Assembly: GCF_036014175.1 (NCBI RefSeq)
Contig: NZ_CP107917.1
Coordinates: 930,001-994,000 of the forward strand
Source of the DNA: Streptomyces sp. NBC_00443
GTDB taxonomy: Bacteria > Actinomycetota > Actinomycetes > Streptomycetales > Streptomycetaceae
DNA: 64,000 bases
Direction of reading: 5' to 3'
The notes under the pieces are model-generated. The model worked only from the letters and a program-made list of their open reading frames with translations, was not told the origin of the DNA and did not search any database. Position 1 is the first letter of the stretch, and every line of letters starts with the position of its first letter. The translations under genes were made by a program, and so were the position numbers. Below are positions 26,082 through 43,489 of this stretch, in pieces.

Positions 26082-26130
26082 GGGCCACAGGGTACGGCGG
26101 CCCCCTGCCGTACCGAAGGCACCCGCTCGG

Positions 26131-26586: not shown

Positions 26587-26604
26587 CGGTACCTTCTCGG
26601 GAGC

Positions 26605-28772
26605 TCAGAAGTTGAGGGGGAAACGGCGCGGCTTGGTGCCGGTCGCCCGTGCGTAGGCGTTGGCGACGGCGCCGGACGCGGCCGGGACGCCGAGTTCGCC
26701 GGCGCCGCCGGGAGCCCGCCGGGAGGGCATGATGTGCGCCTCGAAGTGCTGTGGGGCATGCTGCTGGCGCGCGTAGTGGAAGTCGGCGAAGCTGCTCTCC
26801 CGGACGGCGCCCCGGTCGATGTGCAGGCCGGCTCGGAGGATGGTGGAGATGCCGTCGACGGCCGTGCCCATCAGCTGCGCCTCCAGGCCCCGCGGGTTGA
26901 CTGCCGTGCCTACGTCGGCCGCCATCACCACCTTGGTCACCCGGGGGTTCTTCGGGTCGCCGGCGTCGATCTCGACCAGGCAGGCCACACAGGAGTCGTA
27001 CTCCTCGTGGACCGCGACGCCCTGGGCGTGCCCCTCGGCATGGTCCGGCCCCACTTGCCGGCGCTCGCGACCTTGTCCAGTACGGCCCTGACGGTCTTGC
27101 TCCGCAGGGTCGTACGGCGGAAGGCGACGGGGTCCTGGCCGAGGCTGCGGGCGACCTCGTCGACGACGATCTCCTCGGCGGTGCGCACCGTGCCGGAGTC
27201 CACCGAGCGCCAGGCGCCGAGGGGCATGGCCAGGTCGACCGAGCCGGAGTTCCCGGAGAGACGGCCGAAGTTGTAGAGGCCGCTGTCGCTGGGGAGCGGG
27301 GCGGCGGGGGCGCGTACTGGCGAGTTCGCGCCGACCTGAGTGCGACCCACGGCGCCTTCAGCGGAACGCAGGCCACCCTGCGTGGACAGCCCCTGTGTCT
27401 CGAAGGCCTCGCTGACCGAGGCCGTCGCGTGGACGAAGGCGACCACCCTGCCCCGCGCATGGCTGGCCCGGATCCGGTGGTGGGAGGCCGGGCGCATCCT
27501 GCCGTGCCGGATGTCGTCGGCCCGGCTCCACATGAGCTTGACCGGCCGGCGTGCCTGCTTGGAGATGAGAGCCGCCTCGATCGCGGCGTCATGGTTCAGC
27601 CGCCGCCCGAACGAGCCGCCGCCGCGCAGCACATGGACCTGCACCTTCGACACCGGAAGGCCGAGCCGCGACGCGATGTCCTCCCGCGCGGACGTCGGGG
27701 TCTGGGAGGAGAACCAGATCTCGGCCCGCCCCGTGCGCACGTCCGCCACGGCTGTGAGCACTTCCATCGGCGCGTGGCTGACGAAGGCGAACTCGAACTC
27801 GGCCTCGGTCTGCGCCGATCCGCGCGGCGGGGTCCCGAGCTTCGGGACCGCGGCGCGCAGCCGGGAGCGGATGCCGGAGTCGGAGAGGTTCGCCAGCGGG
27901 CCGGGTGCCCACTTGATCCGGAGGGCGTCCCTGGCCTGGAAGGCGTGGTGGAAGGTCTCCGCGACCACGGCCACTCCGCCGTCGATCTGGACGACCGCGT
28001 GGACACCGGGCATGGCGCGGGCCGCCACGGAGTCGACCGAGAGGACCTTCCCGCCGATCGTCGGCGGCCGGGCCACGACGGTCGGCCTGGCTCCGGCCAC
28101 CGTGAGGTCTCCGGTGTACTTCGCCTTGCCGGTGATGAGGTCACGGGCGTCGATCCGGGTCGTCGGCCGCCCGATCAACCGGTGTTTCGACGCCGGCTTG
28201 GGATCGGTCGGCACGGCCGGCCGTGTGATCCGGGCAGCGCTCCTGGTCAGTGAGCCGAACGTGGCCGAGCGCCCGTCCGGTGCGAAGACTCTCGTGCCGC
28301 GGGTGCGCAGGGTCCGCGCGGGGACGTGCCAGCGGCGGGCGGCCGCGGTCACCAGCTTGGCACGTGCGGTGGCGGCCAGTTGCCGCGCCGGTCCGTACAG
28401 CGAACTGACCGAACTGGAGCCGCCGGTGAACTGGTTGCCCTCGTTGCGGGCATCCGCGAGCGGGATGTCGACGTCGGCGAGCCGGGCGTCCAGTTCCTCG
28501 GCGATCATCATCGCGACGGCGGTGGTGACGCCCTGGCCGACCTCGACGCGGGGCAGCCGGACGACGACCTTGTTGGCCGGAGTGACCTCCAGGACCAGCA
28601 TCTCCGCGTCGGTGCCGGTGACCAGGACGTCGGAGGGCCGGCGGTCGCCGTCCACGGCCCGCTCGGCGCCCTCCGCGGTCGCGGAGTCGCAGCCGAGCGG
28701 TGCCGCGACGGTCAGGGTGGTCGCCGCGAGCGAATAGACCACGAACTGTCGACGGGACAACTGACGGGCCAA
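26605..28772 (-). pseudogene. iorB: Molybdopterin large subunit (isoquinoline 1-oxidoreductase beta type), frameshifted
   Basis: About 722 residues after repair. A Tat-type signal (SRRQFVVYSLAATTLTVAAP) is followed by molybdenum hydroxylase segments PRVEVGQGVTTAVAMMIAEELD, LITGKAKYTGDLTV, LNHDAAIEAALISKQ and LGAWRSVDSG. The C-terminal part DPKNPRVTKVVMAADVGTAVNP lies in another frame. The break is near 27026, where ACGCCCAGG needs ACGGCCCAGG. The start is a TTG at 28772 behind GGAGAGGAG (the long in-frame ATG at 28895 adds unsupported residues). The substrate is an N-heterocycle or aldehyde in principle. The Tat leader suggests export of the folded enzyme. Likely a sequence error. Confidence 0.82.
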
Positions 28773-28861
28773 CAGGCGCTCCTCTCCGCGAACCGGACTG
28801 GTTCGACCTGTATGAGGGGTAGGTGCACCGCGGGGTTGCGCCGGTTGGTCGTTCCTTCGGA

Positions 28862-30031
28862 CTACGGCGCGAGTTGTGAGAGGTCGGAGCTCCACTCCAG
28901 GTGCCGTATGAGCTCGTCGTCGCCCGGCCGGTCCGCACTCGCGCCCCGGGGACCGGGGCCCGACGACGGGGTGTGGGCGCCGCGGGAGATGTTGCCGCTG
29001 ACGGTGATGTTGTGTTCCACGCGGGGGCGGCGGAGTGTCTCGTACAGGGAGAGCGCGGCGTCGGTGTCCGGCGCGTCCCGCAGGGACTTGGCGAGGACGA
29101 CGGCGTCCTCGAGGGCCATCGATGCGCCCTGCCCGGTGGCGGGGGACGCCGCGTGCGCCGCGTCGCCGATGATCAGGGTGCGGCCCGAGCGCCAGGGTGT
29201 TCCGGCGGGCAGTTCGGTGGCGTTGGTGACCATGAGGTGGTCGGGGGGGGCCGCCACCAGGTCAGCGGCCGGGGTGGAGTCCTTGCGCAGCAGCGGCAGG
29301 AGCAGGTCGCGCCATTGGGCGGGGGTGCCCTGCGCGACGGTGTCGGCGGCCAAGGGCGCGTCGGTGACGCGGGCGAACCAGTACGTCTCCCCGTCCGGCG
29401 ACACCGCGTACCCGAAGGCGACGGAGCTGCCGCGCACCATGGTGATGGTCTCGGGCCAGGCGGGTCCGGGGACGGCGCCGGTGTAGCCGTAGAAGACGTA
29501 CTGCCCGGCGTAAGCCGGCCGCGCGTCGGGGGAGATGAGCCGGCGGACGGTGGAGTTGAGGCCGTCGGCCCCGATGAGCAGATCGCCGGCCGCCGTGGTG
29601 CCGTCGGCGAAGTGGGCGGTGACGCCGCCCGGGCCCTCGACCACCGACATCAGGCGCGCGCCGTGCCGGATGTCGATGCCTCTGCGCTCGACCTCGGCCT
29701 GCAAGGCGGAGTTGAGATCGCCGCGCCGCAGGCAGCGGTACTGCAGGTGCGGGGTGCCTGCCTCGCCGAGCGGCACCTGGGCCAGCTCGGTGCCCGTGTC
29801 GTCCATGACCCGCATCGAGGTCAGCGGGAAGCCGATCGCGGTCACCGCGGCCGAGGCGTCCACCTGCGCCAGGGCGCGCATACCGTTGCTCGCGAGCGTG
29901 AGGAACGCGCCGATGTCCTCGGCGGAGTCGGGGTGCGCCTCGTACACGACGACGTCGAACCCGGCCTTGTCCAGCGCCAGAGCCGCGCCCGCGCCCGCGA
30001 TTCCGCCCCCGATGACCAGCACCTGTGCCAC
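28862..30031 (-). CDS. FAD-dependent aromatic monooxygenase
   Basis: About 389 residues of the class A flavoprotein hydroxylase fold. FAD motif VIGGGIAGAGAALALDKAGFDVVVYEAHP at the start, a DG segment LLIGADGLNSTVRRL and GDAAHAASPATGQGASMALEDAVVLAKSL. It resembles TetX/rebC-type and salicylate-hydroxylase-like enzymes of streptomycetes; the exact substrate is unknown. GTG 30031 follows GGGGGAGCGAC. A 31-base tandem duplication covers this start region and could provide a second start further upstream. The stop is 90 bases from the Mo-hydroxylase large subunit on the same strand, so co-transcription is possible. Confidence 0.85.
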   Translation of the reverse strand: MAQVLVIGGGIAGAGAALALDKAGFDVVVYEAHPDSAEDIGAFLTLASNGMRALAQVDASAAVTAIGFPLTSMRVMDDTGTELAQVPLGEAGTPHLQYRCLRRGDLNSALQAEVERRGIDIRHGARLMSVVEGPGGVTAHFADGTTAAGDLLIGADGLNSTVRRLISPDARPAYAGQYVFYGYTGAVPGPAWPETITMVRGSSVAFGYAVSPDGETYWFARVTDAPLAADTVAQGTPAQWRDLLLPLLRKDSTPAADLVAAPPDHLMVTNATELPAGTPWRSGRTLIIGDAAHAASPATGQGASMALEDAVVLAKSLRDAPDTDAALSLYETLRRPRVEHNITVSGNISRGAHTPSSGPGPRGASADRPGDDELIRHLEWSSDLSQLAP

Positions 30032-30092
30032 GTCGCTCCCCCGCTCGTACACACACGACCCCGTCGCTCCCCCGCTCGTACACACACGACCC
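30031..30092 (-). repeat. 31-base tandem duplication at the monooxygenase start
   Basis: Two exact adjacent copies, 30031-30061 and 30062-30092, each containing the ribosome-site-like sequence of the monooxygenase (in gene orientation GAGCGGGGGAGCGACG) and the ACACAC run that reads GTGTGTGT. A partial third beginning follows. Three helical turns of DNA (31 bases) per unit would also suit a repeated protein-binding site. Confidence 0.85.
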
Positions 30093-30350
30093 CCGTGAGC
30101 CGCCCAGGTACATCATGGAACGTCCGGCCTCCGGCGTCGGTTCCCGACCGGATCGTCGACGTGGGGCGGGCCCCATCCCTTCGGCGCCGCACTCACGGTG
30201 GCGGCATTCCCCATCCTGCTGTGGGCGCTGGTCATGTGCGCTCTCGCCGTCTTCCGGATGATTCCCGCCATCTCTTGCGAGGAGTGCAACCATTGGCACG
30301 ACCCGGGTGTCTCACCAGATATCAGACAGTTAGCCTCCCCGGGGGACGCA

Positions 30351-30935
30351 ATGGTACAAAAGCGAACGGCATGGGCGACAGTCGCGCTCATGGGCATCAC
30401 CTTGGGAGTGGCGGCGGTCCCTGCCGACGCAGCCCCCGCCCGCACCACCCAGGCCACCACGGCCTGCCCCACCGGCTGGGGCAGCCAGGCCGAGACCCGC
30501 TCCGCCGCCACGACGGAGTCGGTGACGAACGTCCGGACCGGCCGGCACGCCTGCTTCGACCGCATGGTCGTCGACGTCCCCGGCGCGGGCAGCGGCGACC
30601 TCGGCTATTCCGTCAGGTACGTCAGCCGCCTCTATCAGGACGGTTCGGGCGACCACATCGCCGTCGGCGGCGGAGCCGTCCTCGAGGTACGGGTGACCGC
30701 ACCGGCCTACGACACCGACACCGGCAAGCCCACGTATCCCGTGCGGGCCGGACAGCGCCTGAAGGGCGTGGACCTCACGGGGTACCGCACCTTCCGGGAC
30801 GGCCGGTTCGTCGGCAGCTTCGAAGGGGACACGCAGATCGGGCTCGGCGTCCGGGCGCGGCTGCCGTTCCGGGTGTGGGTGGCCGACAACCGGATCGTGG
30901 TCGACGTGGCGCACAACTGGACCGGGGCACGCTGA
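30351..30935 (+). CDS. Secreted AMIN-like domain protein
   Basis: A 194-residue exported protein. Signal peptide KRTAWATVALMGITLGVAAVPADA, then the AMIN-like pattern: GWGSQAETRSAATTESVTNV, RTGRHACFDRMVVDVPG, a beta core with YSVRYVSRLYQDG and, at the end, TQIGLGVRARLPFRVWV plus RIVVDVAHNW. AMIN domains bind peptidoglycan. Two conserved Cys (CPTGWG, HACFDR) may form a disulfide. ATG 30351 is chosen as the start of the signal peptide; an upstream in-frame start adds unrelated residues. Confidence 0.85.
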   Translation: MVQKRTAWATVALMGITLGVAAVPADAAPARTTQATTACPTGWGSQAETRSAATTESVTNVRTGRHACFDRMVVDVPGAGSGDLGYSVRYVSRLYQDGSGDHIAVGGGAVLEVRVTAPAYDTDTGKPTYPVRAGQRLKGVDLTGYRTFRDGRFVGSFEGDTQIGLGVRARLPFRVWVADNRIVVDVAHNWTGAR

Positions 30936-30958
30936 GGGCGGTCATGGGCGGGGAGCGA

Positions 30959-32737
30959 TCAGAGCGCCCCGCCCCGGATCGCGGCATCCCGCCCCTGGTA
31001 CTCCCGCAGCTTCCGGTAGAGGGTCGCCCGGGCGATGCCCAACGCCGCCGCGGCGCGCGCCTTGTTGCCGCCGTGGCGGCGCAGCGCCTCCAGGATCGCG
31101 GCGCGTTCGGCGACCTCCATCGGGCTGAGGTTGCGTCCCGCGGGTCCTTCCCGGACGGGATCGGGCAGTTCGCTCCGCCGCACCGGTCCGCAGATCCGGC
31201 GTTGACGCGCCAACGCCCGCACGAGATGGGCGAGTTCGGTGACGTTGCCGGGCCAGGGATGCCGTTCCAGGGCCCGCAGCGCGTCCAGCGACCAGGTCAA
31301 CGGCGGGCTGCCGGGGGCGGGCCCGGGAGCGAGGGCGGGGAGCAGCTCCCGGATGTCCTCGGGACGTTCACGCAGGGCCGGCAGTGTCACCGAGCGGGCC
31401 GCGAGGGTGTCGAGGAGGCGCTGGAGGCAGGGGCCCGGTGAGGTTCCTGGCGTGTAGGTGACGACCATGCGGGCGTCGGGGCGCTCGTCCAGGAGCGAGT
31501 TGAGGGCGGCGACGTCGGACTGGGCGAGCCGTTCGGCGTGCCGCAGCAGCAGCGGGCGATCGCCTGCTGTCCCCCATCCTTCGGCCGGGGCGGCCCCCAT
31601 CTCGCCCCGCTCGTCGTCCTTCAGGCGGGGTTCGGGTGATTCTGCGGCATCCACGACCAACAGGGGCGTGCCGTCGAGCAGTTCGAGGGCCAGCGTGGTC
31701 TTGCCGGTTCCCCGTTCGCCCACGACGAGCAGGGGTCCCGCGGTCCGGGCCAGGGCCGTCGCCCGCGCGACAGCGTGCCGCCACGGCACCGAGTTCCCCA
31801 CCAGTTCGCTCTCCGGGCGGGGCAGGGACGGCGGCCCCGGCTCCACGGAACGGGGTGCGAGCACGGCGACCAGGCCGACGGCGCGCCCCTCGTGCCGTAC
31901 CGGAATGATCTCGGCGCTGCACCCGGCGTCCTCGGGGAGCGAGGCCTCGTACGACTCGCCGGTCCCCCTCCCCCACGCCCGCGCGCCCCGCTCAAGCGCC
32001 TCCAGCACCTGCGGCGAAGCAAGACGTGCGGCCGCCTCGCTGATCAGGCGGCTACGGCCGTCCAGCGCGACGACGGCCCGTTCGCGCCCACGCGCGGCCC
32101 GCTCGTACGCGTCGAGCAGCTCCCGTTCCGCGGAACGCGTGCGTGCCCGCAGTTCGGCCTCCACCGCCGCGGCGGCCGCCTCGGCGAGGGCGGCGCCGGG
32201 GTGCGGTCGGCAGCCCGCGCACAGACCGGAGGCGACCGTGACCGTGCCGAGCACCTGTTCCGCGTCCGGGGACAGCAGCGGCACGCTGACGGCGGAGACG
32301 TCCTGCCACACGTCGAGGAAGTGCTCGGGGCCGTGCACCTCGGCCCGGCGCCGGGTGCGCAGGGCGAGCGCGGCACTGTTGTGGCCGACCGCGCGCTCGG
32401 ACAGGTCGCTGCACGTGTCGTCGCCGGGGGCGCTGCCCGTCGACCACAGCACCCTCAGCCGTTCGTCCGTGAGCACGAGCGCCGAGCGTCCGGCGTCCAG
32501 GGCCGGGGCGATCCGGGCGAGCACAGGACGCGCCGCCTCCAGCAGGGGCGAGTCGACGGGGTGGGCCGGCTCCCGTACCGGGCCGTCGAGATCGGGCCGT
32601 ACGCCGAAGAACCGGGCACGCCGCCAGGCGGCGACGACGTCGTCCGGCACGCCCGCCGGGAGCGGTCGCCCCGTCAGGAATCGTTCGCGGGCATGGCGCA
32701 GCGGGGCGAGGGCAGGAGGATGTTCCGCGGTGGTCAT
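30959..32737 (-). CDS. GAF/AAA/Fis-type activator of the hydroxyquinol operon
   Basis: A 592-residue regulator. Residues 60-200 form a GAF-like sensor region. A degenerate AAA+ domain follows with Walker A VGERGTGKTT at about 339-348 and a remnant Walker B in LLLRHAERLAQSDVAALNSLL. The last 45 residues are a Fis helix-turn-helix (RRHGGNKARAAAALGIARATLYRKLREYQG). The sigma-54 contact loop GAFTGA is missing, in keeping with the absence of sigma-54 in actinomycetes. ATG 32737 follows GGTGAGGAGCGCC. It is divergent from the phenol hydroxylase, so it most likely activates the hydroxyquinol operon in response to a phenol. Confidence 0.9.
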   Translation of the reverse strand: MTTAEHPPALAPLRHARERFLTGRPLPAGVPDDVVAAWRRARFFGVRPDLDGPVREPAHPVDSPLLEAARPVLARIAPALDAGRSALVLTDERLRVLWSTGSAPGDDTCSDLSERAVGHNSAALALRTRRRAEVHGPEHFLDVWQDVSAVSVPLLSPDAEQVLGTVTVASGLCAGCRPHPGAALAEAAAAAVEAELRARTRSAERELLDAYERAARGRERAVVALDGRSRLISEAAARLASPQVLEALERGARAWGRGTGESYEASLPEDAGCSAEIIPVRHEGRAVGLVAVLAPRSVEPGPPSLPRPESELVGNSVPWRHAVARATALARTAGPLLVVGERGTGKTTLALELLDGTPLLVVDAAESPEPRLKDDERGEMGAAPAEGWGTAGDRPLLLRHAERLAQSDVAALNSLLDERPDARMVVTYTPGTSPGPCLQRLLDTLAARSVTLPALRERPEDIRELLPALAPGPAPGSPPLTWSLDALRALERHPWPGNVTELAHLVRALARQRRICGPVRRSELPDPVREGPAGRNLSPMEVAERAAILEALRRHGGNKARAAAALGIARATLYRKLREYQGRDAAIRGGAL

Positions 32738-32954
32738 GGCGCTCCTCACCGTATCGGGGGCCACGCGCAGGCGACGGCGGCGGGCTGTGCCGGCGGAGGT
32801 TGTCTCGTATTGAGACACCCATGACCGACCCCGGCGCTCCATGATCTTGAAAGGCATGGGTCCGTTCTCAACTCTCGGCTCCTGCCCGGATCCGGGCTCA
32901 TGCCATGGCTCGTCCGCTTGCTCACCCCTGACTCGCCTCCTGGAGCGTTCTGTC

Positions 32955-34694
32955 GTGCACACCGTTGTCGAGACCGACGTACTGATCGTGGGAAGCGGCC
33001 CGGCGGGCGCGTCGGCCGCGCTCGCGCTGAGCACCTACGGCGTGCGCAACATGGTCGTCACCCGGTACGCGAGCCTCGCCGACACGCCCCGGGCGCACAT
33101 CACCAACCAGCGCACCATGGAGGTGCTGCGCGATCTGGGCGTCGAGCAGGAGGTCGTCGCCAAGGCGACGCCCCAGCACCTGATGGGCAACACCACGTTC
33201 TGCACGAGCCTGGCCGGCGAGGAGCTCGGCCGGGTGCGCTCCTGGGGCAACGACCCGCGCGTGCAGGCGGCGCACGAGCTGGCCAGCCCGACGCGGATGT
33301 GCGACATGCCGCAGCACCTGATGGAGCCGGTGCTGGTGAACGCGGCGATCGCGCGCGGCACCGACCTCCGGTTCAGCACGGTCTACAAGTCCTTCGTACA
33401 GGACGAGTCCGGCGTCACGGTCACCGTCGAGGACCGGTTGCGCGGCGACGAGTACGCGATTCGCGCCACATACCTGATCGGCGCCGACGGCGGCCGTTCC
33501 AAGGTCGCCGAGGACGCCGGGCTGCCGATGGGCGGTCAGATGGGCGTCGGGGGCAGCATCAACATCGTCTTCGACGCGGACCTGAGCAAGTACACCGCGC
33601 ACCGCCCCTCCACCCTCTACTGGGTCCTCGCGCCCGGCGCCACGGTCGGCGGCATCGGCGCGGGCCTGGTGCGCTGCGTACGGCCCTGGAACGAGTGGCT
33701 GATCGTGTGGGGCTACGACGTGACCGCCGGCGCCCCGGACCTCACCGAGGAGTACGCCCTGTCCGTCGTACGTCAGTTGGTCGGCGACGACGAGATACCG
33801 GTGACCATCAAGTCGTCCTCGGCGTGGACGGTCAACGAGATGTACGCGCAGAAGTACGCCGACGGCCGGGTCTTCTGCGCCGGTGACGCCGTGCACCGCC
33901 ACCCGCCGTCCAACGGGCTCGGCTCCAACACGTCCATCCAGGACTCCTACAACCTGGCCTGGAAGCTGAAGCTGGTCCTCGACGGCGTCGCCGCGCCGCG
34001 GCTCCTCGACAGCTACGACGCCGAGCGCGCTCCGGTCGGCAGGCAGATCGTGACCCGCGCCAACAAGTCCATCGCCGAGACCGCCCCGGTCTTCGAGGCG
34101 CTCGACGGGCTGTCGCCGCAGACGCCGGAACAGTTGTGGGCCAACATCGCCGCCCGCACGGCCACCACCGAGACGGCGGCCGAGCAGCGGGCCGCGCTGC
34201 GCGAGGCGATCGCCTTCAAGGTCTACGAGTTCAACGCGCACGGCGTCGACCTCAACCAGCGCTACGCCTCCGAAGCGGTCGTCCCCGACGGCACGCCCGA
34301 CCCCGGCTTCACCCGCGATCCCGAACTGCACCACCAGCCCACCTCCCGCCCCGGCGCCAAGCTTCCGCACGCCTGGATCACCTCCGGGCCCCGGACCCTG
34401 TCCACCCTCGACACCGTCGGCCGGGGCCGCTTCACCCTGCTCACCGGCATCGGTGGCGAGGCGTGGCTGCGGGCGGCCGAGGCGCAGCCCCTCGACATCG
34501 CCACGGTCGTCATCGGACCGGGCCGGGAGTTCGAGGACCCCTACGGCGACTGGGCCGGCCTGAGCGAGATCTCGGACGCGGGCGCCCTCCTCGTACGTCC
34601 CGACGGGTACGTGGCGTTCCGGCACGCCGACGCGGCCGTGGACGCCGAGCGGTTGCTCACGGACGCGCTGCGGCGGATTCTCGGGCACGGTTGA
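32955..34694 (+). CDS. FAD-dependent phenol hydroxylase (TfdB / resorcinol hydroxylase type)
   Basis: A 579-residue class A monooxygenase. GSGPAG at residues 13-18 binds FAD, followed by TPRAHITNQRTMEVLRDLGV and the conserved middle motif LIGADGGRSKVAEDAG. The second FAD motif is CAGDAVHRHPPSNGLGSNTSIQ with DSYNLAWKLKLVL. The C-terminal thioredoxin-like domain is typical of large phenol hydroxylases (2,4-dichlorophenol 6-monooxygenase, resorcinol hydroxylase). GTG 32955 is chosen where similarity begins. The downstream genes encode hydroxyquinol cleavage, so the product is expected to be hydroxyquinol, from resorcinol or a related phenol. Confidence 0.9.
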   Translation: MHTVVETDVLIVGSGPAGASAALALSTYGVRNMVVTRYASLADTPRAHITNQRTMEVLRDLGVEQEVVAKATPQHLMGNTTFCTSLAGEELGRVRSWGNDPRVQAAHELASPTRMCDMPQHLMEPVLVNAAIARGTDLRFSTVYKSFVQDESGVTVTVEDRLRGDEYAIRATYLIGADGGRSKVAEDAGLPMGGQMGVGGSINIVFDADLSKYTAHRPSTLYWVLAPGATVGGIGAGLVRCVRPWNEWLIVWGYDVTAGAPDLTEEYALSVVRQLVGDDEIPVTIKSSSAWTVNEMYAQKYADGRVFCAGDAVHRHPPSNGLGSNTSIQDSYNLAWKLKLVLDGVAAPRLLDSYDAERAPVGRQIVTRANKSIAETAPVFEALDGLSPQTPEQLWANIAARTATTETAAEQRAALREAIAFKVYEFNAHGVDLNQRYASEAVVPDGTPDPGFTRDPELHHQPTSRPGAKLPHAWITSGPRTLSTLDTVGRGRFTLLTGIGGEAWLRAAEAQPLDIATVVIGPGREFEDPYGDWAGLSEISDAGALLVRPDGYVAFRHADAAVDAERLLTDALRRILGHG

Positions 34695-34776
34695 GATGGA
34701 CGCCCAGGAAGCCGAAGAAGGACATGAAGCCGCGGGACGGGCAGCCGCACCACAAGTAGCCTGGGAAGGAGCCGAC

Positions 34777-35640
34777 ATGACCGGTGACGCGCCGGACACG
34801 GTCACCGACGAGGTCGTCGCGAGTCTGCGGGGCACGGACGATCCGCGACTGCGGGAGCTGCTGACCGGTCTGGTCCGGCATCTGCACGCCTTCGCGCGGG
34901 AGTCGCGGCTGACGCAGGAGGAGTGGGAGCGGGCGGTCGGGTTCCTGACGGCGACCGGGCAGGCATGCACGCAGACCCGCCAGGAGTTCATCATGCTGTC
35001 CGACGTGCTCGGTCTGTCGATGCTCGTCGAGACGATCAACGAGCGGCACGGCCCCGGCGCCACCGAGTCGACGGTCCTCGGCCCGTTCCACATGACCGAG
35101 TCGCCGGTGCGCGCGCTCGGCGCGAACATCGACCTGGTCGGCGGCGGCGAGCCGTGCGTGGTCAGCGGGCGCGTGCTGTCCCGGGACGGCGCCCCGCTGC
35201 CCGGCGCGGTCGTCGACGTGTGGCAGGCCGACGGCAACGGCTTCTACGACGTGCAGCAGCCGGACGTACAGCCTCCGGGCAACGGCCGCGGCCTGTTCAC
35301 CGCGGACGGCGAGGGACGGTTCCGGTTCCGTACGTGCGTGCCGAGCCCGTACCCGATCCCGACGGACGGACCGGTCGGCACACTGCTGCGGGCCACCGGA
35401 CGGCACCCCTACCGGCCCGCGCACATCCACTTCATCGCCTCGGCCGACGGACACACCCCGGTGACCACGCACATCTTCGTGGCGGGCAGCGACTACCTGG
35501 ACTCGGACGCGGTGTTCGCCGTCAAGCCGGGCCTCGTCAACGACTTCGCGCCGATCGACGACCCGTCTGCGGCAAGGGAGTTCGGCGTGCCGAACCCGTT
35601 CCGGCACGCCCGCTTCGACCTCGTACTGGAGCGGTCGTGA
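34777..35640 (+). CDS. chqB: Hydroxyquinol 1,2-dioxygenase
   Basis: A 287-residue intradiol ring-cleavage dioxygenase that converts hydroxyquinol to maleylacetate. The iron ligands are visible: Tyr157 (NGFYDVQ), Tyr192 (SPYPIP), His216 and His218 (AHIHFI). A helical N-terminal dimerisation domain of about 100 residues with QEFIMLSDVLGLSMLVE is typical of the hydroxyquinol enzymes rather than protocatechuate ones. ATG 34777 follows GGGAAGGAG; a longer in-frame start at 34696 lacks one. It overlaps the next gene by four bases (GTGA), so the operon is tightly coupled. Confidence 0.95.
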   Translation: MTGDAPDTVTDEVVASLRGTDDPRLRELLTGLVRHLHAFARESRLTQEEWERAVGFLTATGQACTQTRQEFIMLSDVLGLSMLVETINERHGPGATESTVLGPFHMTESPVRALGANIDLVGGGEPCVVSGRVLSRDGAPLPGAVVDVWQADGNGFYDVQQPDVQPPGNGRGLFTADGEGRFRFRTCVPSPYPIPTDGPVGTLLRATGRHPYRPAHIHFIASADGHTPVTTHIFVAGSDYLDSDAVFAVKPGLVNDFAPIDDPSAAREFGVPNPFRHARFDLVLERS

Positions 35641-36719
35641 ACGACGCCCTCGACTTCTCCTACGACGCCCTGCCCGTCCGCGTCGTGTTCCGGCCCGGCG
35701 CGGCGGTGTCCGCGACGCCGGGCGAGGTCGAGCGGCTGGGGCTGCGGCGGGTGCTGGTGGTGTGCGGGACTCGGGGCGCGGACACCGCGCGGGCGGTCGC
35801 CGACGCGCTCGGCCCGGCCTGCGTCGGTGTGCACGACCGGGCGCGGATGCACGTCCCCGTCGAGGTCGCCGATGTGGCCGTCCAGGCGGCTCGCGCGGCC
35901 GGCGCCGACGGGTGCGTCGCGGTGGGCGGCGGCTCGTCGATCGGGCTGGGCAAGGCGATCGCCCTGCGCACCGGGCTGCCGCTGATCGCGGTGCCCTCCA
36001 CGTACTCGGGCTCGGAGATGACCCCGGTCTGGGGCCTGACCGAGCATGGCGCCAAACGGACCGGCCGCGACCCGAAGGTGCTGCCCCGCAGCGTGGTCTA
36101 CGACCCCGAGCTCACCCGCTCGCTGCCCGTCCCCCTCTCCGTGACCAGCGGCATCAACGCGCTCGCGCACGCCGTCGAGGCCCTGTACGCCCCCGACACC
36201 TCGCCCCTCGTCGCGCTGATGGCCGAGGAGGGCGTACGGGCGATGGCGCGGGCACTCCCGGCGGTGGCCGAGGAGCCGGCGTCGCCGGCCGCCCGCGGTC
36301 GGGCGCTGTACGGGGCCTGGCTGTGCGGGTCCTGCCTGGGCGCCACCACCATGGGCCTGCATCACAAGCTGTGCCATGTCCTGGGCGGCAGCTTCGGCCT
36401 CCCGCACGCCGAGACGCACACGGTGGTGCTGCCGTACGTCCTGGCCCACAACGCGCCGGCCGCCCCGGACGCGGCCGCCGCCGTGGCCCGCGCCCTGGAA
36501 GCCGCCGACGCTCCGACGGCCCTGTGGGAACTGGCGGGACGCCTCGGCGCGCCCCGCTCGCTCGCCGAACTGGGCCTCACCGAGGCCGACTTGGCAGCAG
36601 CAGCCGCGCAGACCGCGGGCTCGGCGTACGCCAACCCCCGCCCGGTCACCGCCGACGGCGTACTCGCCGTGCTGCGGGCGGCGTACGAGGGCGTGGCACC
36701 GGCCCCGGCCGCCCGCTGA
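35637..36719 (+). CDS. Maleylacetate reductase
   Basis: A 360-residue iron-alcohol-dehydrogenase-family enzyme that reduces maleylacetate to 3-oxoadipate with NAD(P)H. Signature motifs are AVGGGSSIGLGKAIALRTGLP (nucleotide binding), VPSTYSGSEMTPVWGL, and the metal region GLHHKLCHVLGG plus GLPHAETHTVVLPYV. Many maleylacetate reductases lack metal dependence; the His-rich sites here look intact. GTG 35637 overlaps the preceding stop. The position after hydroxyquinol dioxygenase fixes the role. The 3-oxoadipate then needs pathway enzymes not present in the window. Confidence 0.95.
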   Translation: MNDALDFSYDALPVRVVFRPGAAVSATPGEVERLGLRRVLVVCGTRGADTARAVADALGPACVGVHDRARMHVPVEVADVAVQAARAAGADGCVAVGGGSSIGLGKAIALRTGLPLIAVPSTYSGSEMTPVWGLTEHGAKRTGRDPKVLPRSVVYDPELTRSLPVPLSVTSGINALAHAVEALYAPDTSPLVALMAEEGVRAMARALPAVAEEPASPAARGRALYGAWLCGSCLGATTMGLHHKLCHVLGGSFGLPHAETHTVVLPYVLAHNAPAAPDAAAAVARALEAADAPTALWELAGRLGAPRSLAELGLTEADLAAAAAQTAGSAYANPRPVTADGVLAVLRAAYEGVAPAPAAR

Positions 36720-36806
36720 TCCGTGCGCGACCTCAGCCGCCCGCTCCCGCACCCCCTGCTCCCCCACGCTCGAAGATCCCCCCACGACGGAAGAAAGGTG
36801 ATCAGC

Positions 36807-37727
36807 ATGCCCCTCGGTCTAATCAGGAGCCGGAACTCCCGGGGGAGTCGACGCTCGCGAGGAGCGCCGGGCGTCCCATTGCCCGTGCCGGCCGGTGCGG
36901 GTGTCGTGGGCCGTGAGGTCGTGGATCCGGTCGGGCTGCCGATGCGCGGCGCCGACGTGACCGTGACCGCGATGGACTCGCACCAGGTCGTGGCGTCCGG
37001 TACGACGGACCCGTACGGCCTCTTCTTCGCCGCGCTCCCGCCGGGCCGCTACAGCCTCATGATCACGGCCGAGGGCCTGACACCGCACCGGGAGTCGCTG
37101 GACGTCGTCGCCGGTGCGCCGCAGCCCTCCGCGCAGGTCCAGCTGACGTCGGGCCGGCAGCTGGAACTGCCGGCTGCGGGCACCTGGCTGTTCGACCCGC
37201 CGCACACGGCGATCCGGTTCATCGCCAAACATGTCGGCATGGCCCATGTCCACGGCCGCTTCGAGCGGTTCACCGGCGGCATCCGGGTGGCGCCCGACAT
37301 GGCCGATTCCCAGGTGTCGGTGCGCATCGAGGCGGCCAGCATCACCACCGGCAACAACACCCGGGACAGCCATCTGCGTTCGGCCGACTTCCTGGACGTC
37401 CAGCGCTACCCGTACATCGACTTCACCAGCACGCGCTTCGCCTTCCGCGGCGGCGCCAAGTGGACGCTGCAGGGGTCGCTCACCATGCACGGTGTGAGCC
37501 GCTCGGTGGAGCTGGACACCACCTACCTGGGATCGGTCAACGGCGGCTACGGCGAGGAGCTGCGGTGTGCGGCGCTGGCCAGGGCCGAGCTGCACCGGGA
37601 GGACTTCACCCTGAACTGGCGCAGCATGCTGGCCCGCGGAATCGCGGTGGTCGGGCCCACGGTCCAGCTGGAGCTGGACGTCCAGGCGATGTACCGCACG
37701 CACGACACGCCGACCCCTCCCGACTAG
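36807..37727 (+). CDS. YceI family protein with N-terminal carboxypeptidase-regulatory-like domain
   Basis: A 306-residue two-domain protein. Residues 20-120 are a beta-sandwich of carboxypeptidase-regulatory type (GLPMRGADVTVTAMDSHQVV, GLFFAALPPGRYSLMITAEG). Residues 130-300 are a YceI lipocalin-like domain (DPPHTAIRFIAKHVGMAHVHGRF, FLDVQRYPYIDFTST) that binds polyisoprenoids or other lipids. No clear signal peptide is seen. ATG 36807 follows GAAAGGTG. It lies at the end of the hydroxyquinol operon on the same strand, 87 bases after maleylacetate reductase, and may bind a hydrophobic ring compound or a quinone (inference). Confidence 0.88.
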   Translation: MPLGLIRSRNSRGSRRSRGAPGVPLPVPAGAGVVGREVVDPVGLPMRGADVTVTAMDSHQVVASGTTDPYGLFFAALPPGRYSLMITAEGLTPHRESLDVVAGAPQPSAQVQLTSGRQLELPAAGTWLFDPPHTAIRFIAKHVGMAHVHGRFERFTGGIRVAPDMADSQVSVRIEAASITTGNNTRDSHLRSADFLDVQRYPYIDFTSTRFAFRGGAKWTLQGSLTMHGVSRSVELDTTYLGSVNGGYGEELRCAALARAELHREDFTLNWRSMLARGIAVVGPTVQLELDVQAMYRTHDTPTPPD

Positions 37728-37814
37728 GCCAGGATGGCTGAGAGGTACCTCACGCCCCGGTTACGAATTGCTCAACCTCTGGTTGCGACGCGGTGATCGG
37801 GTGACTATGGGGGC

Positions 37815-38201
37815 ATGACACTGGCCCAGCGCGCCATGAAGCAACTGGAAGTCTGGCCCGATCTGAGTTCGGGCCCTGCCAGCTGCGGTGCAGGGCGGGC
37901 ACTGCGCTCCGTCCACAGCGAGATCGTGCACTTCCACTCCGACCATGACGTGGACCTGCACCTGACGGTGTCGGCCATCCGACGTTTCCACGACGACCTC
38001 CGGGAGTCCACCGCGATCAGGCTGGTCCCCGGCTCCGGCTGGGTGACCGTGCATCTCGACTGCGACACGGACGTCGATCTGCTGATGAGCCTGGTCAGCG
38101 CCGCGCTCAAGGCCCACCAGAACGTGCCGTCCCCTGCCGGGAAGCGTCCAGCAGGGGGCGAGTGCAACTTCGGCCGGGTCACGGTGCTGCACCGCCGCTA
38201 G
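37815..38201 (+). CDS. Luciferase-family (DUF5519-type) hypothetical protein
   Basis: A 128-residue protein with the features of the family annotated luciferase domain/DUF5519: EIVHFHSDHDVDLHLTVSAI, WVTVHLDCDTDVDLLMSLVSAAL and a Gly-rich end. The name comes from weak similarity; no light-producing chemistry should be assumed. It shows conserved His and Asp positions that could bind a ligand. ATG 37815 has a Gly-rich upstream run (ATGGGGGC). It is next to but separate from the YceI gene and is convergent with polyphosphate kinase. Confidence 0.7.
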   Translation: MTLAQRAMKQLEVWPDLSSGPASCGAGRALRSVHSEIVHFHSDHDVDLHLTVSAIRRFHDDLRESTAIRLVPGSGWVTVHLDCDTDVDLLMSLVSAALKAHQNVPSPAGKRPAGGECNFGRVTVLHRR

Positions 38202-38210
38202 GCCCTGTCG

Positions 38211-39092
38211 CTAGGAGTCGTCCTCCCCCGCCTCCAGCAGGCCGGCGGCCGCGCCGACTATCCGGGGGTCGGCGGCACCGACGACTTCCTCGTCCTTGTC
38301 GTTGTAGTCGAAGCGGGCCAGCACGCTGCGCATCGCCTCGACGCGCGCACGCTTCTTGTCGTTGCTCTTCACCACGGTCCAGGGCGCGTGCTCGGTGTCC
38401 GTCTCACGGAACATGGCGACCTTGGCGGCGGTGTAGTCGCCCCAGCGGTCCAGCGACGCCAGGTCCATCGGGCTGAGCTTCCACTGCCGTACGGGATCGA
38501 CCTGGCGGATGGTGAACCGGGTGCGCTGCTCGCCCTGGGACACCGAGAACCAGAACTTGATCAGGTCGACGCCGTCGTCGACGAGCATGCGCTCGAAGGC
38601 AGGCGCCTGCCGCATGAAGCGCCGGTACTCGTCATCCGCGCAGAAGCCCATCACCCGCTCCACGCCGGCCCGGTTGTACCAGGACCGGTCGAACAGCACG
38701 ATCTCGCCCGCCGTGGGCAGATGCTCGACGTACCGCTGGAAGTACCACTGCCCGCGCTCCCGCTCGGTCGGCTTCTCCAGCGCCACGACCCGGGCGCCGC
38801 GCGGGTTGAGATGCTCCGTGAACCGCTTGATCGTGCCGCCCTTGCCGGCCGCGTCCCGCCCCTCGAAGACGATGACGAGCCGCCGGCCGCTCTCCTTGAT
38901 CCAGCTCTGCAGTTTCAGCAGTTCTATCTGCTGCAGCCGCTTGTGCCACTCGTACTCCGGGCGCTCCATGCGCTTGTCGTACGGGTAGTTCTCGCGCCAC
39001 GTGTCCACCGGACTTCCGTCCGGCCGGATCAGCACGGGGTCGTCCTGGTCGGTGTAGTCGACGCGCAGCCCTGACAGCAGTTCGGTGTCCAT
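38211..39092 (-). CDS. ppk2: Polyphosphate kinase 2
   Basis: A 293-residue class I PPK2, which uses polyphosphate to phosphorylate nucleoside di- or monophosphates. Walker A EGRDAAGKGG is at residues 77-86, with the lid EKPTERERGQWYFQRYVEHLP and Walker B-type FDRSWYNRAGVERVMGF. The active-site Asp and Arg pairs are intact. ATG 39092 (MDTELLSG) is chosen; two codons earlier is another Met. The C-terminus is Asp/Glu rich. Polyphosphate metabolism helps long-term survival and fits the stress genes around. Confidence 0.95.
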   Translation of the reverse strand: MDTELLSGLRVDYTDQDDPVLIRPDGSPVDTWRENYPYDKRMERPEYEWHKRLQQIELLKLQSWIKESGRRLVIVFEGRDAAGKGGTIKRFTEHLNPRGARVVALEKPTERERGQWYFQRYVEHLPTAGEIVLFDRSWYNRAGVERVMGFCADDEYRRFMRQAPAFERMLVDDGVDLIKFWFSVSQGEQRTRFTIRQVDPVRQWKLSPMDLASLDRWGDYTAAKVAMFRETDTEHAPWTVVKSNDKKRARVEAMRSVLARFDYNDKDEEVVGAADPRIVGAAAGLLEAGEDDS

Positions 39093-39166
39093 ACACACCC
39101 ATGAGAGCGAGCGCTTTCATACGCAGGGCGAACCCAAGGCAAAGATCACGTAACTCCCGGAACGGA

Positions 39167-39631
39167 TCAACGTGATCCGGGCTCGACCAGCCGGGCGAGG
39201 TTGGCCAGCGCCATCCGCGTGCCGGTCTCGTTGTCCGCGGCGGGCACCACGTCGGGGATTCCCTCGTGCACGACGAGGACGTCCGTGCCGCCGTCGGCAT
39301 CCGTGAGGGTGGTGGTCATGGTCATCGTGGAGCGCAGGGCGGGGTCGTCGGTCTCGAACTCGACCTCCTCGACGACCTGCTCGTCCGGTACGAGCCGCAC
39401 GAAGCGGCCGTGGTACGTGTCGGTGTGCGCGTCCGACTTCCCGGTGCCGGTCGGCAGGTCATAGGTGAGCGAGACCCGGAACGCTCCGCCTTCGCGCCCC
39501 TCGAACTCGTACACATGCCCGCTCATGCCGTCCGGAACCCGCCACTTCTCGACGGCGTCCGCGTCCAGCAGCGCCCGGTAGACGGCCGCGCGCGAGGCAT
39601 TCACATGCCAGGAGACCCGCGTCGAGTACAT
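39167..39631 (-). CDS. SRPBCC (AHSA1-like) domain protein
   Basis: A 154-residue START/Bet v1-type fold. It begins with VSWHVNASRAAVYRALLDADAVEKWRVPDGM, the usual opening of activators of Hsp90-type AHSA1 proteins, and ends with the C-terminal helix TGTRMALANLARLVEP. These proteins bind hydrophobic ligands or act as regulator partners. It stands between ppk2 and a MarR gene on the same strand and overlaps neither. Because AHSA1 proteins often pair with ArsR regulators, and none is adjacent, the context is uninformative. Confidence 0.85.
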   Translation of the reverse strand: MYSTRVSWHVNASRAAVYRALLDADAVEKWRVPDGMSGHVYEFEGREGGAFRVSLTYDLPTGTGKSDAHTDTYHGRFVRLVPDEQVVEEVEFETDDPALRSTMTMTTTLTDADGGTDVLVVHEGIPDVVPAADNETGTRMALANLARLVEPGSR

Positions 39632-39659
39632 GGCCTCACGATAGCGGCGGGTGTACGGG

Positions 39660-40088
39660 TCAGGGGGACTCCCAGGAGGCCAGTGCGCGCATCGCCGCCG
39701 CCGTCCGCGTGAACCCGTCCTCGCCCAGCAACGCCCTCGCCTCGGCGTTGAACCGGTCGACCTCCGGCTGCGCGGCGTCGAGTGCGGCGGCCCCGTCGCC
39801 GGTCAACTCCAGCACCACGGCGCGGTGCTCTCGCGGGTGCGCCTGCTTGGCGACCAGACCGGCCGTGGTGAGCCGGCCGACCAGCCCGGTGACCGCGGAC
39901 TCGCGCAGCCCGAGGGTGCGGGCCAGCGCCTGCTGGGTGACGCCCGGCTCGTCACGGATCGCGAACAGTGCGCCGAGCTGGGCCGTGGTGATCCCGGCGG
40001 TGGCCAGCAGGCGCCGGTCGGAGGCGGTGCGCAACTGGTGTGCCGCCCGCTGGAGCAGGAAGAACAGACGCTGATCGGGCTCGGGCAT
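39660..40088 (-). CDS. MarR family transcriptional regulator
   Basis: A 142-residue MarR protein: LFFLLQRAAHQLRTASDRRL at the start, recognition helix TQQALARTLGLRESAVTGLVGRL and wing PREHRAVVLELTGDG. ATG 40088 sets a good N-terminus. The gene is divergent from the hotdog thioesterase, and an ACTTCA/TGAAGT palindrome lies in the gap, the probable operator for both. MarR plus acyl-CoA thioesterase pairs often respond to aromatic or fatty acyl-CoA. Confidence 0.92.
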   Translation of the reverse strand: MPEPDQRLFFLLQRAAHQLRTASDRRLLATAGITTAQLGALFAIRDEPGVTQQALARTLGLRESAVTGLVGRLTTAGLVAKQAHPREHRAVVLELTGDGAAALDAAQPEVDRFNAEARALLGEDGFTRTAAAMRALASWESP

Positions 40089-40128
40089 GGACCGATGTTG
40101 ACAGAGGGGACGGCACGGCGCCATCCTC

Positions 40129-40144
40129 ACTTCACTACTGAAGT
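40129..40144. promoter_or_regulatory. Palindrome ACTTCA-N4-TGAAGT, likely MarR operator
   Basis: Perfect 6-base arms at 40129-40134 and 40139-40144 with spacer CTAC, in the MarR/thioesterase divergent gap. A second feature just downstream repeats GTGACYTACGAT at 40145-40156 and 40158-40169. Confidence 0.7.
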
Positions 40145-40188
40145 GACTTACGATGACGTGACCTACGATCACGGTGGACGGTGGTCTC

Positions 40189-40632
40189 GTGGACAACACC
40201 CTCGATCTGCCTCTCGCCCGCAAGGTGCTGGCCTCCCAACCCTTCAGCGTGCTGCTGGGTGCCAGGCTGACGGCCTTCGGCGACGGCGAGGCGACACTCG
40301 AACTGGACCTCCGTGAGAATCTGCTGCAGCAGCACGGCTTCGCCCACGGCGGTCTGCTCGGCTACGCGGCGGACAACGCGCTGTCGTTCGCCGCGGGCGC
40401 CGCGGTCGGCTTCGGTGTGATGACCGCCGGTTTCACCATCGACTTCCTGCGCCCCGCCAAGGGCGAGACCCTGCGCGCCCATGCCCGGGTGATCCGGGCC
40501 GGCCGTACCCGCGCGGTGTGCCGCTGCGACCTGACGACGGTCGCCGCCGACGGCACCACGACCCTGTGCGCCGTGGCCCAGGGCAGCATCGCGGTCACGG
40601 AACCGGCCCGGGACAGCGAGCGCGACGCCTGA
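40189..40632 (+). CDS. PaaI-type hotdog thioesterase
   Basis: A 147-residue hotdog-fold thioesterase, family of phenylacetyl-CoA and hydroxybenzoyl-CoA thioesterases. Motif QQHGFAHGGLLGYAADNALSF contains the active-site Gly/His and Asp region. Strands follow in TAGFTIDFLRPAKGETLRAHARVI. GTG 40189 is the likely start (an in-frame GTG at 40174 is possible). Beside the divergent MarR gene it suggests a small regulated module that clears CoA esters, perhaps from aromatic acids. Confidence 0.85.
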   Translation: MDNTLDLPLARKVLASQPFSVLLGARLTAFGDGEATLELDLRENLLQQHGFAHGGLLGYAADNALSFAAGAAVGFGVMTAGFTIDFLRPAKGETLRAHARVIRAGRTRAVCRCDLTTVAADGTTTLCAVAQGSIAVTEPARDSERDA

Positions 40633-40647
40633 CGGCACCCCTGAGGT

Positions 40648-41976
40648 TCAGCGCACGAGACAGGGCCGCTTCGCGTCGAAGGTCCAGCCGTCGACCAGGT
40701 ATCGCATGCCGACGGCGTCGTCCCGGCCCGACAGCGCCTTCTCCTTGTAGAGCTCGTGTGCCGCCAGGAGTCGGTCCATGTCCAGGTGGATGCCGAGTCC
40801 GGGCGTGTCCGGTACGGCGACCTCGCCGCCGGCGATCCTCGGCGGCTCCACGGTGAGACGCTCCAGCCCCTCCTGCCAGATCCAGTGGGTGTCCAGGGCG
40901 TTGTACTCGCCGGGTGCGGCCGCTCCGCAGTGGGCCATCATCGCCAGGGAGATGTCGAAGTGGTTGTTGGAGTGGCAGCCCCAGGTCAGCCCCATCGCGT
41001 TGCACAGCTGGGCGACGCGCACCGACCCCTGCATGGTCCAGAAGTGCGGGTCGGCGAGCGGGATGGACACCGACTGCAGCGCCAGGGCGTGGGTGAGCTG
41101 ACGCCAGTCCGTGGCGATCATGTTGGTCGCCGTGGGCAGCCCGGTGGCCCGGCGGAACTCCGCGAGGATCTCGCGCCCCGAGTAGCCGCCCTCAGCCCCG
41201 CAGGGGTCCTCGGCATAGGCCAGGGTGCCGAGGAGGGGACGGCACAGCTCGACCGCCTCGTGCAGCGACCAGGCGCCGTTGGGGTCGAGGGTGATCCGCG
41301 CCTCGGGGAAGCGGTCCTTGAGCGCGGTGACGGCCTTGACCTCCTCCGCGCCGGGCAGGACACCGCCCTTGAGCTTGAAGTCACGGAAGCCGTAGTGGTC
41401 GTAGGTGGCCTCGGCCTGCCGGACGATCGCCTCGGGGGTCAGCGCCTCCTCGTGCCGGATGCGGTACCAGTCGACGTCGGCGTCGGGTGCGCGGACGTAG
41501 TCCAGGTCGGTCCGGTCCGGGTCGCCGACGTAGAAGAGGTAGCCGAGTACCCGTACGGAGTCGCGCTGTTGCCCGTCGCCGAGGAGGGCGGCGACCGGGA
41601 CTTCGAGGTGCTGGCCGAGCAGGTCGAGGAGGGCCGACTCGACGGCGGTGACCGCGTGGACGGTGGTGCGCAGGTCGTAGGTCTGGGCGCCGCGGCCTCC
41701 CGTGTCGCGGTGGGCGAAGGTGGACTCTATGGCGCTCAGGACGCGCTTGTAGTCGCCCACGCGCGCTCCGACGACGAGCGCTGCGGCGTCGCGCAGGGTC
41801 CGGGTGATCTTCTCGCCGCCGGGCACCTCACTGAGGCCCGTACGCCCTTCGGAGTCCTCGAGGACGACGACGTTACGGGTGAAGTACGGGGCGTGCGCGC
41901 CGGAGAGGTTGAGGAGCATCGAGTCGTGGCCGGCGACCGGATAGACAGAGAAGCGGGTGACGACGGGCTGGGTCAT
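40648..41976 (-). CDS. gudD: Glucarate dehydratase
   Basis: A 442-residue enolase-superfamily enzyme that dehydrates D-glucarate to 5-keto-4-deoxyglucarate. Features are [10 protein letters not shown] (catalytic Lys), metal ligands in ITLDPNGAW and [25 protein letters not shown], and [11 protein letters not shown] with the catalytic His. The N-terminal capping domain begins [29 protein letters not shown], as in known GudD. It is 38 bases downstream of the GntP-type permease, so substrate uptake and first step are in one operon. Confidence 0.95.
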
Positions 41977-42014
41977 GACGGGCGGATGCCGTTCTCGTGA
42001 GGGGGGTGGGCGGG

Positions 42015-43352: not shown

Positions 43353-43404
43353 ATGTCAGTTCTCCTTTGAACGCCGACCGCCTACGTTCACCCCGCTGAA
43401 CGGG

Positions 43405-43439
43405 GTCTTCACATGAAGACGTCGTCTACATATGAAGAC
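43405..43439. promoter_or_regulatory. Two tandem palindromes, consensus GTCTTCATATGAAGAC
   Basis: GTCTTCACATGAAGAC at 43405-43420 and GTCTACATATGAAGAC at 43424-43439 each match the 16-base palindrome GTCTTCATATGAAGAC with one difference. They are spaced 19 bases apart, immediately upstream of the GntP permease and glucarate dehydratase. Likely a regulator binding site, possibly of GntR or IclR type; no candidate regulator gene is adjacent. Confidence 0.8.
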
Positions 43440-43489
43440 GGAGATTATGTTCATGGATGGTCAAGGTCAATGGGTCTGCGCCTGTTGAT

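Follow-up and report, generated by a model that had tools for sequence, protein, structure and literature searches.

How can a Fis-type regulator with an AAA domain and no GAFTGA motif control catabolic genes, and why should a YceI-family gene close an operon for hydroxyquinol degradation? Both questions are raised by a hydroxyquinol module at positions 30959-37727 of a 64-kb stretch of DNA from Streptomyces sp. NBC_00443, hereafter the window, which belongs to a source genome of 9.45 Mb in a single contig. The regulator gene (REG) lies on the minus strand, divergent from the genes for a phenol hydroxylase (HYD), a hydroxyquinol 1,2-dioxygenase (HQD), a maleylacetate reductase (MAR) and a YceI fusion protein (YCE). 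The module is a genuine regulon that is anatomically well supported, and YCE is inherited with REG rather than with ring cleavage. The reading that we favor, and hold to be probable, is that of a small catabolic regulon in which a DhaR-like, sigma-54-independent REG activates HYD and YCE from a palindrome with fixed spacing; the activator mechanism is likely, as inferred from the conserved features described below.

All five genes were found where the initial annotation had placed them, with Pfam and the solved-structure library in agreement. They and their predicted control elements are arranged as follows.

30959..32737, minus strand: REG, regulator of 592 amino acids with GAF, PAS-like, degenerate AAA and Fis-type helix-turn-helix (HTH_8) parts, ATG start (Pfam, motif alignment and Foldseek; the putative PAS-like part is taken from the structure model)
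32748..32753, minus strand: possible -10 element of the REG promoter, TACGGT (from the sequence; 11 of 12 aligned loci share CACCGTA on the plus strand, and the function is putative)
32801..32817, no strand assigned: predicted REG operator, a 17-bp palindrome, TGTCTC-GTATT-GAGACA (conservation across loci with REG and HYD)
32840..32845, plus strand: -10-like element CATGAT, 22 nucleotides (nt) past the palindrome (its second base, A, and its sixth, T, kept across sites)
32955..34694, plus strand: HYD, HbpA/TfdB-type phenol hydroxylase dependent on flavin adenine dinucleotide (FAD), GTG start chosen by eye (Pfam, solved relatives)
34777..35640, plus strand: HQD, hydroxyquinol 1,2-dioxygenase (Pfam, solved relatives, alignment with 1tmx)
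35637..36719, plus strand: MAR, maleylacetate reductase, GTG start overlapping the HQD stop (Pfam, solved relatives)
36807..37727, plus strand: YCE, carboxypeptidase-regulatory-like domain and YceI barrel, no secretory leader seen (Pfam, model, Foldseek)

The initial description of a coupled operon holds for HQD and MAR, which overlap by 4 nt, and less well for HYD and HQD, which are separated by 82 nt, and for MAR and YCE, which are separated by 87 nt.

Pfam recognizes in REG a GAF domain (residues 65-178), AAA_lid_14 and HTH_8, together with a weak AAA core (Sigma54_activat under its cut-off). The motifs were aligned in REG and 34 intact orthologues (35 sequences in all), after omission of copies that are interrupted by in-frame stops or aligned over no more than 480 residues, and E. 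coli PspF, TyrR and DhaR served as controls. GAFTGA was absent from all 35 sequences; among the controls it was present in PspF and absent from TyrR and DhaR. In every REG sequence only 3 of the 12 columns of the second pore loop (loop 2) were filled, Walker A (G-E-x-G-x-G-K) was intact, and the acidic D-E of Walker B was replaced by R-H. No arginine was found at either arginine-finger position in any of the 35 (the second position is T in 24, K in 9, I in 1 and S in 1), and the sensor-II arginine was replaced throughout, by T in 34 and S in 1. Judged from this alignment, the motif losses are fixed family traits rather than recent decay, and it therefore seems unlikely that REG hydrolyzes a nucleotide, although it may bind one. 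The best NCBIfam match of REG is DhaR (NF008485), with 74 bits against an equivalog cut-off of 551 and over residues 441-581 only, so that by sequence REG is best described as DhaR-like and not as DhaR.

Sigma-54-dependent activation was rejected for REG on the absent GAFTGA, the lost ATPase motifs, the lack of Sigma54_DBD and the lack of a nearby -24/-12 match. The search for Sigma54_DBD found none in the 9.45-Mb source genome and was positive in 4 of 14 control genomes. A -24/-12 consensus matched the window 15 times at up to two mismatches, with no match between 23.5 and 40.0 kb. These results bear out the initial annotation in calling the regulator GAFTGA-less and sigma-54-free. Its further view, that it is entirely open how a protein of this kind activates transcription, is not supported, as there are precedents: the part of the literature available to us describes Actinobacteria as lacking sigma-54, TyrR, DhaR and HupR as GAFTGA-defective and sigma-70 dependent, and false identifications of sigma-54 activators as a reported problem (PMC3162934). 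Thiol sensing by REG was also considered and set aside as too weak to claim, given the conservation of Cys109 (20/35), Cys173 (27/35), Cys176 (24/35), Cys273 (32/35) and Cys437 (35/35).

The region at 32740-32950, in which a promoter site had been proposed, holds by sequence comparison a conserved regulatory stretch composed of the predicted operator and the -10-like element. With no more than one mismatch, the palindrome was found in 40 of the 41 loci that carry REG and HYD (36 exact), and the sole locus missing it, L127, is one in which REG and HYD are broken. The order at the sites is the palindrome, CCC, 19 less conserved bases and CAnnnT, which gives the 22-nt spacing. Two key positions of a -10 element are A(-11) and T(-7), and both occurred at one and the same offset in 40/40 HYD sites and 15/15 YCE sites, compared with 30 and 3 for the next best offset. 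When six sites examined later were included, this spacing with invariant A and T held in 61 of 61 sites (43 HYD, 18 YCE). Distances elsewhere around the operator were variable, at 86-179 nt to the HYD start and 27-1462 nt to REG. The center of the palindrome would lie at about -43, the position of a class II activator. No box within 500 bp upstream was found at up to two mismatches in any of the 26 HQD loci without REG. A composite genome search allowing three mismatches returned 73 matches, against 34 for the reversed control, with only one exact; one 3-mismatch match stands directly upstream of a paralogous regulator in the same genome. Among the open-access papers listed as matches, none dealt with this operator or with YceI in a Streptomyces hydroxyquinol locus.

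The core of the palindrome, GTCTC-N5-GAGAC, was also seen outside this group. At up to two mismatches it occurs near 6 of 9 distant REG paralogues (L014, L015, L016, L017, L018 and L020) and is absent near the other three (L013, L019 and L021), 0.03-0.15 occurrences per locus being expected by chance. It also lies directly upstream of a REG paralogue in the source genome (G000:C1:129978-131726), and among four plasmid loci of Rhodococcus/Cnuibacter, two carry a match to the core with 2 mismatches and the other two no match. GTCTC-N5-GAGAC may be a family-wide operator.

YCE appears likely, from the placement of these boxes, to be a direct target of REG. The gap between MAR and YCE was measured between alignment ends and divided at 150 nt. 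Where it was shorter, a box preceded YCE in 0/25 loci; where it was 150 nt or longer, YCE had its own box in 14 of 17, the misses being L120, L127 and L153. A box also precedes YCE in L070, which has no MAR. Six further loci, which had played no part in recognizing the pattern, each carried a box at no more than one mismatch and with the same A(-11)/T(-7) spacing. The box was present where YCE lies about 14 kb from HQD (G175) or 370 kb from REG (G126), where REG-HYD-YCE is separate from HQD-MAR (G240 and G131), where REG and YCE stand back to back (G322), and on a named plasmid with REG-HYD-YCE (L196). In genomes without a REG orthologue, no box was found within 300 bp of the YCE orthologue (0/4; L072-L075), and YCE is without a box in L195 and L197, a plasmid setting with a shortened REG. 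A detached YCE thus usually carries its own REG box.

Some of these loci have additional genes next to YCE. An NAD(P)-binding-type gene, by eye, stands between MAR and YCE at 6799-7677 of L068 and 11700-12536 of L069, and YCE there has its own REG box. In L070 (9467-10939) and L135 (10423-11916), related genes that are probably secreted and look glycosidase-like by eye lie directly before YCE, and in L070 this gene occupies the place of HYD-HQD-MAR.

The inheritance of YCE was followed in loci chosen by HQD alone. About 150 matches to HQD were listed, of which the 78 with at least 59% identity were scored as sets of 70 and 8. Two loci of the first set whose contigs end before REG (L133 and L134) were excluded from the Fisher count and the tree, leaving 68 loci; L127, in which REG, HYD and YCE are all broken, was kept out of the tree counts and entered in the Fisher count as having both REG and YCE, and L146, with a REG fragment, was scored as having REG. 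Both genes were present in 40 of the 68 loci and both absent from 26, while two had REG only and none had YCE only (Fisher test, 8.6e-17). In the two loci with REG only (L121 and L141), YCE was found at another place in the genome, where a box of its own precedes it. None of the 8 further loci had REG, HYD, YCE or a box at up to one mismatch, L224 having only 1.5 kb before HQD.

A maximum-likelihood tree of HQD contained six changes in REG. Over 200 random choices of six independent pairs differing in REG, YCE on average followed REG in 5.8 and in no pair ran opposite to it (pair test p, median 0.031, range 0.031-0.125). HYD differed in the same way as REG in 5.3 pairs and showed no difference in 0.7. 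The association of HYD with YCE was weaker, with 5.9 pairs the same, 1.0 opposite and 2.1 without difference, out of 9. Among 120 relatives, REG orthologues (at least 59% identity) were found in 12 and YCE orthologues (at least 64%) in 16, and all 12 were shared. Whole-genome searches in 14 exceptions or REG-less cases found REG and YCE both in 5 and neither in 9, at the cut-offs used.

Individual loci show the same pattern. L125 is collinear with the window around the module, the three closest blocks being 77-84% identical at the DNA level; it has retained HQD-MAR, and REG-HYD on one side and YCE on the other are missing. Similarly, in L139 compared with L068, HQD-MAR is kept and REG, HYD and YCE are missing. 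Conversely, REG-HYD-YCE units without adjacent HQD-MAR were found in L071, L196, L216 and L218. In L217, REG and YCE stand back to back with HYD gone, and in L070 they flank an unrelated gene. The YceI protein had been put forward as a partner for ring cleavage; this was rejected on co-inheritance, as no HQD locus without REG carries YCE (0/26, then 0/8) and REG-HYD-YCE units exist without HQD-MAR.

The mechanism that we propose would proceed as follows. The GAF/PAS front end of REG would sense a phenolic (or quinone) signal, directly or via a partner. Its AAA part may bind nucleotide, probably without hydrolysis, and would then act as a dimerization or signal-transfer block, and the Fis-type helix-turn-helix would bind TGTCTC-N5-GAGACA. 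From about 43 bp upstream of the start, REG would recruit RNA polymerase of the sigma-70/HrdB type in the style of a class II activator, to promoters with a poor -10 (CAnnnT) and no recognizable -35. REG is predicted, from such sequence features, to belong with the sigma-70-dependent activators of the DhaR/TyrR type. Its targets would be HYD, HQD-MAR where these follow HYD, and YCE. HYD would ortho-hydroxylate a phenol, most likely one resembling resorcinol or hydroquinone; HQD would open hydroxyquinol to maleylacetate, and MAR would reduce maleylacetate to 3-oxoadipate. YCE would be a cytosolic barrel for a hydrophobic ligand, serving the regulator or hydroxylase step and not ring cleavage.

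Several observations weigh against this reading. All loci belong to a single genus and are thus non-independent, the tree giving only six independent changes and p up to 0.125 in some pairings. Four of the 16 YCE-bearing relatives have YCE only. L125 also lacks the window stretches at about 24.2-28.9 and 38.2-40.6 kb, so that loss there is not confined to REG-HYD and YCE. In L120 and L153 the gap is 154 and 173 nt, and YCE is not preceded by a box. The exact palindrome is not rare by chance, as a reversed control pattern also gave one match genome-wide, and matches in the window at up to two mismatches are at chance level (2 observed, 2.35 expected); the case for the operator therefore rests on conservation and spacing. 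The -10-like element has no T(-12), and a generic sigma-70 consensus scan of 32600-38300 found no promoter, so that no -35/-10 consensus pair is claimed. The structure model of REG is of moderate confidence (mean predicted local distance difference test score, pLDDT, 69; predicted template-modeling score, pTM, 0.42), and its first Foldseek match, E. coli DhaR(N), has low TM-scores of 0.24 by query and 0.46 by target. Finally, G055 has REG-HYD-YCE and no HQD at E<=1e-40. Hydroxyquinol is thus not the end route of every strain, and HYD may feed other routes there.

The control region could be read in two other ways. REG might act as a repressor, keeping the -35 region blocked as long as no phenol is bound. 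The operator is close to the expected -35, a repressor could also sit near -43, and dual regulation is annotated for both TyrR and DhaR; the poor -10 and the lack of a consensus -35, however, suit a need for activation, and the invariant spacing to the -10 (55/55 sites) seems stricter than repression usually needs, which leaves repression unlikely in our estimate. The conserved CAnGATC, instead of being a -10, could be where a second protein binds, or it could belong to a longer operator. Its GATC is almost invariant, and conservation extends to about +34, beyond what a -10 alone needs; yet A(-11) and T(-7) never vary, and strong conservation stops near the expected start site, and we regard this explanation as distinctly unlikely.

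YCE, for its part, could be an envelope or stress lipocalin of general function, carried by linkage only and without a role in the pathway. The abundance of YceI (114/120 genomes) and the four orthologues in REG-less genomes (L072-L075) are in keeping with it, but a REG box kept after relocation, once at 370 kb, and changes together with REG in most independent pairs are not, and we find it doubtful. A shuttle that serves ring cleavage by carrying a hydrophobic phenol or quinone, as initially suggested, has parallels in ligand capture by BcnA (PMC5350466) and in the yceI gene beside sadA (PMC6868719), as far as these sources are available to us. We judge it quite improbable, because YCE does not follow HQD in REG-less loci; if YCE is a shuttle at all, the hydroxylase or the sensor is the likelier beneficiary. 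YCE may shuttle or sequester a hydrophobic phenol or quinone. By analogy with DhaL and DhaK, which signal to DhaR and for which complex structures exist, YCE might also be a soluble co-sensor in the cytosol, binding a hydrophobic phenol or quinone there and passing the signal to the GAF/PAS part of REG. Such a role would account for the joint gain and loss of YCE and REG, for the box that is usually kept after moves, and for the arrangements in L217 and L070; it is a speculative proposal to which we give little weight. If it were true, REG and YCE would make up a two-protein switch, and the catabolic genes that it recruits would differ from strain to strain.

The enzymes were assigned from their domains and solved relatives. 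HYD contains the Pfam domains FAD_binding_3 and Rng_hyd_C, and its best match among solved structures is HbpA, 2-hydroxybiphenyl 3-monooxygenase (E 8e-201), along with 2,4-dichlorophenol 6-monooxygenase (E 6.5e-164); by these matches it is best named a class A flavin phenol hydroxylase of the HbpA/TfdB type. HQD has Dioxygenase_N and Dioxygenase_C, and its best solved relatives are 6-chlorohydroxyquinol and hydroxyquinol 1,2-dioxygenases. Four of its top five are (chloro)hydroxyquinol enzymes or PnpC, titled hydroxyquinol 1,2-dioxygenase, and the fifth is unnamed; the names of these relatives support a specificity for hydroxyquinol over catechol. Two Tyr and two His of HQD all align with the iron-ligand positions of 1tmx, in the Tyr2His2 pattern of intradiol enzymes. 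MAR has Fe-ADH domains; its first solved relative is an unnamed iron-containing alcohol dehydrogenase, and the second and third are maleylacetate reductase (E 3e-104 and 2e-99). By sequence match, MAR is in the maleylacetate-reductase group of iron-type alcohol dehydrogenases. At 8696-10624 of L195, on a plasmid of Streptomyces sp. NBC_00055, maleylacetate reductase and hydroxyquinol 1,2-dioxygenase are annotated as fused in a single gene, and many weaker HQD matches lie in frames of 660-920 amino acids, perhaps the same fusion.

YCE comprises CarboxypepD_reg (39-114) and YceI (128-295), the latter at 136.5 bits against a cut-off of 23.7. Its model (mean pLDDT 77.5) matched TT1927b, E. coli YceI and BcnB in Foldseek, together with a TTR/CnaB-like N domain, and TT1927b/YceI is its best solved relative by sequence. 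The alignment of YCE did not include L052 and L054, and L060 was dropped for its wrong frame. No hydrophobic leader was visible by eye in the N termini of YCE and its orthologues, and YCE is therefore probably cytosolic, unlike E. coli YceI, which is exported to the periplasm or outside. The fusion is not rare: YceI homologues occur in 114 of the 120 relatives, many of them full-length at about 45-51% identity and covering the N-terminal domain too. In the published accounts, as far as available to us, BcnA, which has the YceI fold, captures hydrophobic antibiotics such as rifampin and binds Nile red, and its tunnel is described as binding vitamins E and K2 (PMC5350466). A yceI gene adjoins the sadA monooxygenase in sulfonamide degraders, where a role in uptake was suggested, so that yceI beside monooxygenases is already in print (PMC6868719). 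YceI was increased in the proteome of a phenylphenol degrader (PMC5527002), and a YceI protein is among the entries of a transcriptome table of R. opacus 1CP (PMC13101518).

Among the known systems closest to REG is E. coli DhaR. The two share a Fis-type helix-turn-helix, degenerate AAA motifs and the lack of GAFTGA, and the sensor part of REG matched 4lrz (first), 4lry and 4lrx in Foldseek with low TM-scores. Unlike DhaR, REG targets, as predicted, aromatic catabolism, has no adjacent DhaK/L genes, and carries R-H in Walker B where DhaR has E-K. E. coli TyrR, like REG, is without GAFTGA and has a Fis-type helix-turn-helix, but it retains the Walker B D-E and the sensor-II R, and its operator, TGTAAA-N6-TTTACA, differs. 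Sigma-54 activators of the HbpR/DmpR type have the same plan of sensor, AAA and Fis parts and control phenol hydroxylases with the use of GAFTGA, ATP hydrolysis and -24/-12 promoters. The link to them is through HbpA, which is controlled by HbpR and is the best solved relative of HYD; REG is without their motifs and has no -24/-12 match nearby.

Clusters for resorcinol and 4-nitrophenol in Rhodococcus and Corynebacterium likewise keep a hydroxylase, hydroxyquinol 1,2-dioxygenase and maleylacetate reductase together. Their regulators are of the TetR, IclR and AraC types, and we know of no YceI in them. Regulators of the AcoR/Fis type beside actinobacterial alkane monooxygenases, assigned by sequence analysis only, resemble REG in standing next to catabolic monooxygenase genes; they differ in substrate, and no operator or promoter spacing is described in the available part of that account (PMC8784404). 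The sad cluster of sulfonamide-degrading actinobacteria resembles the module in having yceI next to flavin monooxygenases; the available part of the source (PMC6868719) mentions no REG-type regulator, and we liken its YceI to YCE by gene context.

As for the surroundings, the closest named homologues of the window are located on Streptomyces plasmids. An Rfam scan of 25000-45000 gave no match, and no tRNA was found in the window. The adjoining stretch at 26131-30085 holds, as read by eye, a molybdenum-hydroxylase-like oxidoreductase, an Fe-S subunit and another FAD monooxygenase.

Regulators of the Fis/AAA type without GAFTGA are often misnamed sigma-54 activators in databases, even in actinobacteria that lack sigma-54, as far as the available account goes (PMC3162934). 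REG is one such protein for which a concrete promoter logic can be predicted, with a 17-bp operator and an invariant 22-nt spacing to a -10-like box. Since GTCTC-N5-GAGAC recurs near distant paralogues, this rule may help in reading other actinobacterial catabolic regulons. YceI, a large family of mostly unclear roles, gains a defined predicted regulon.

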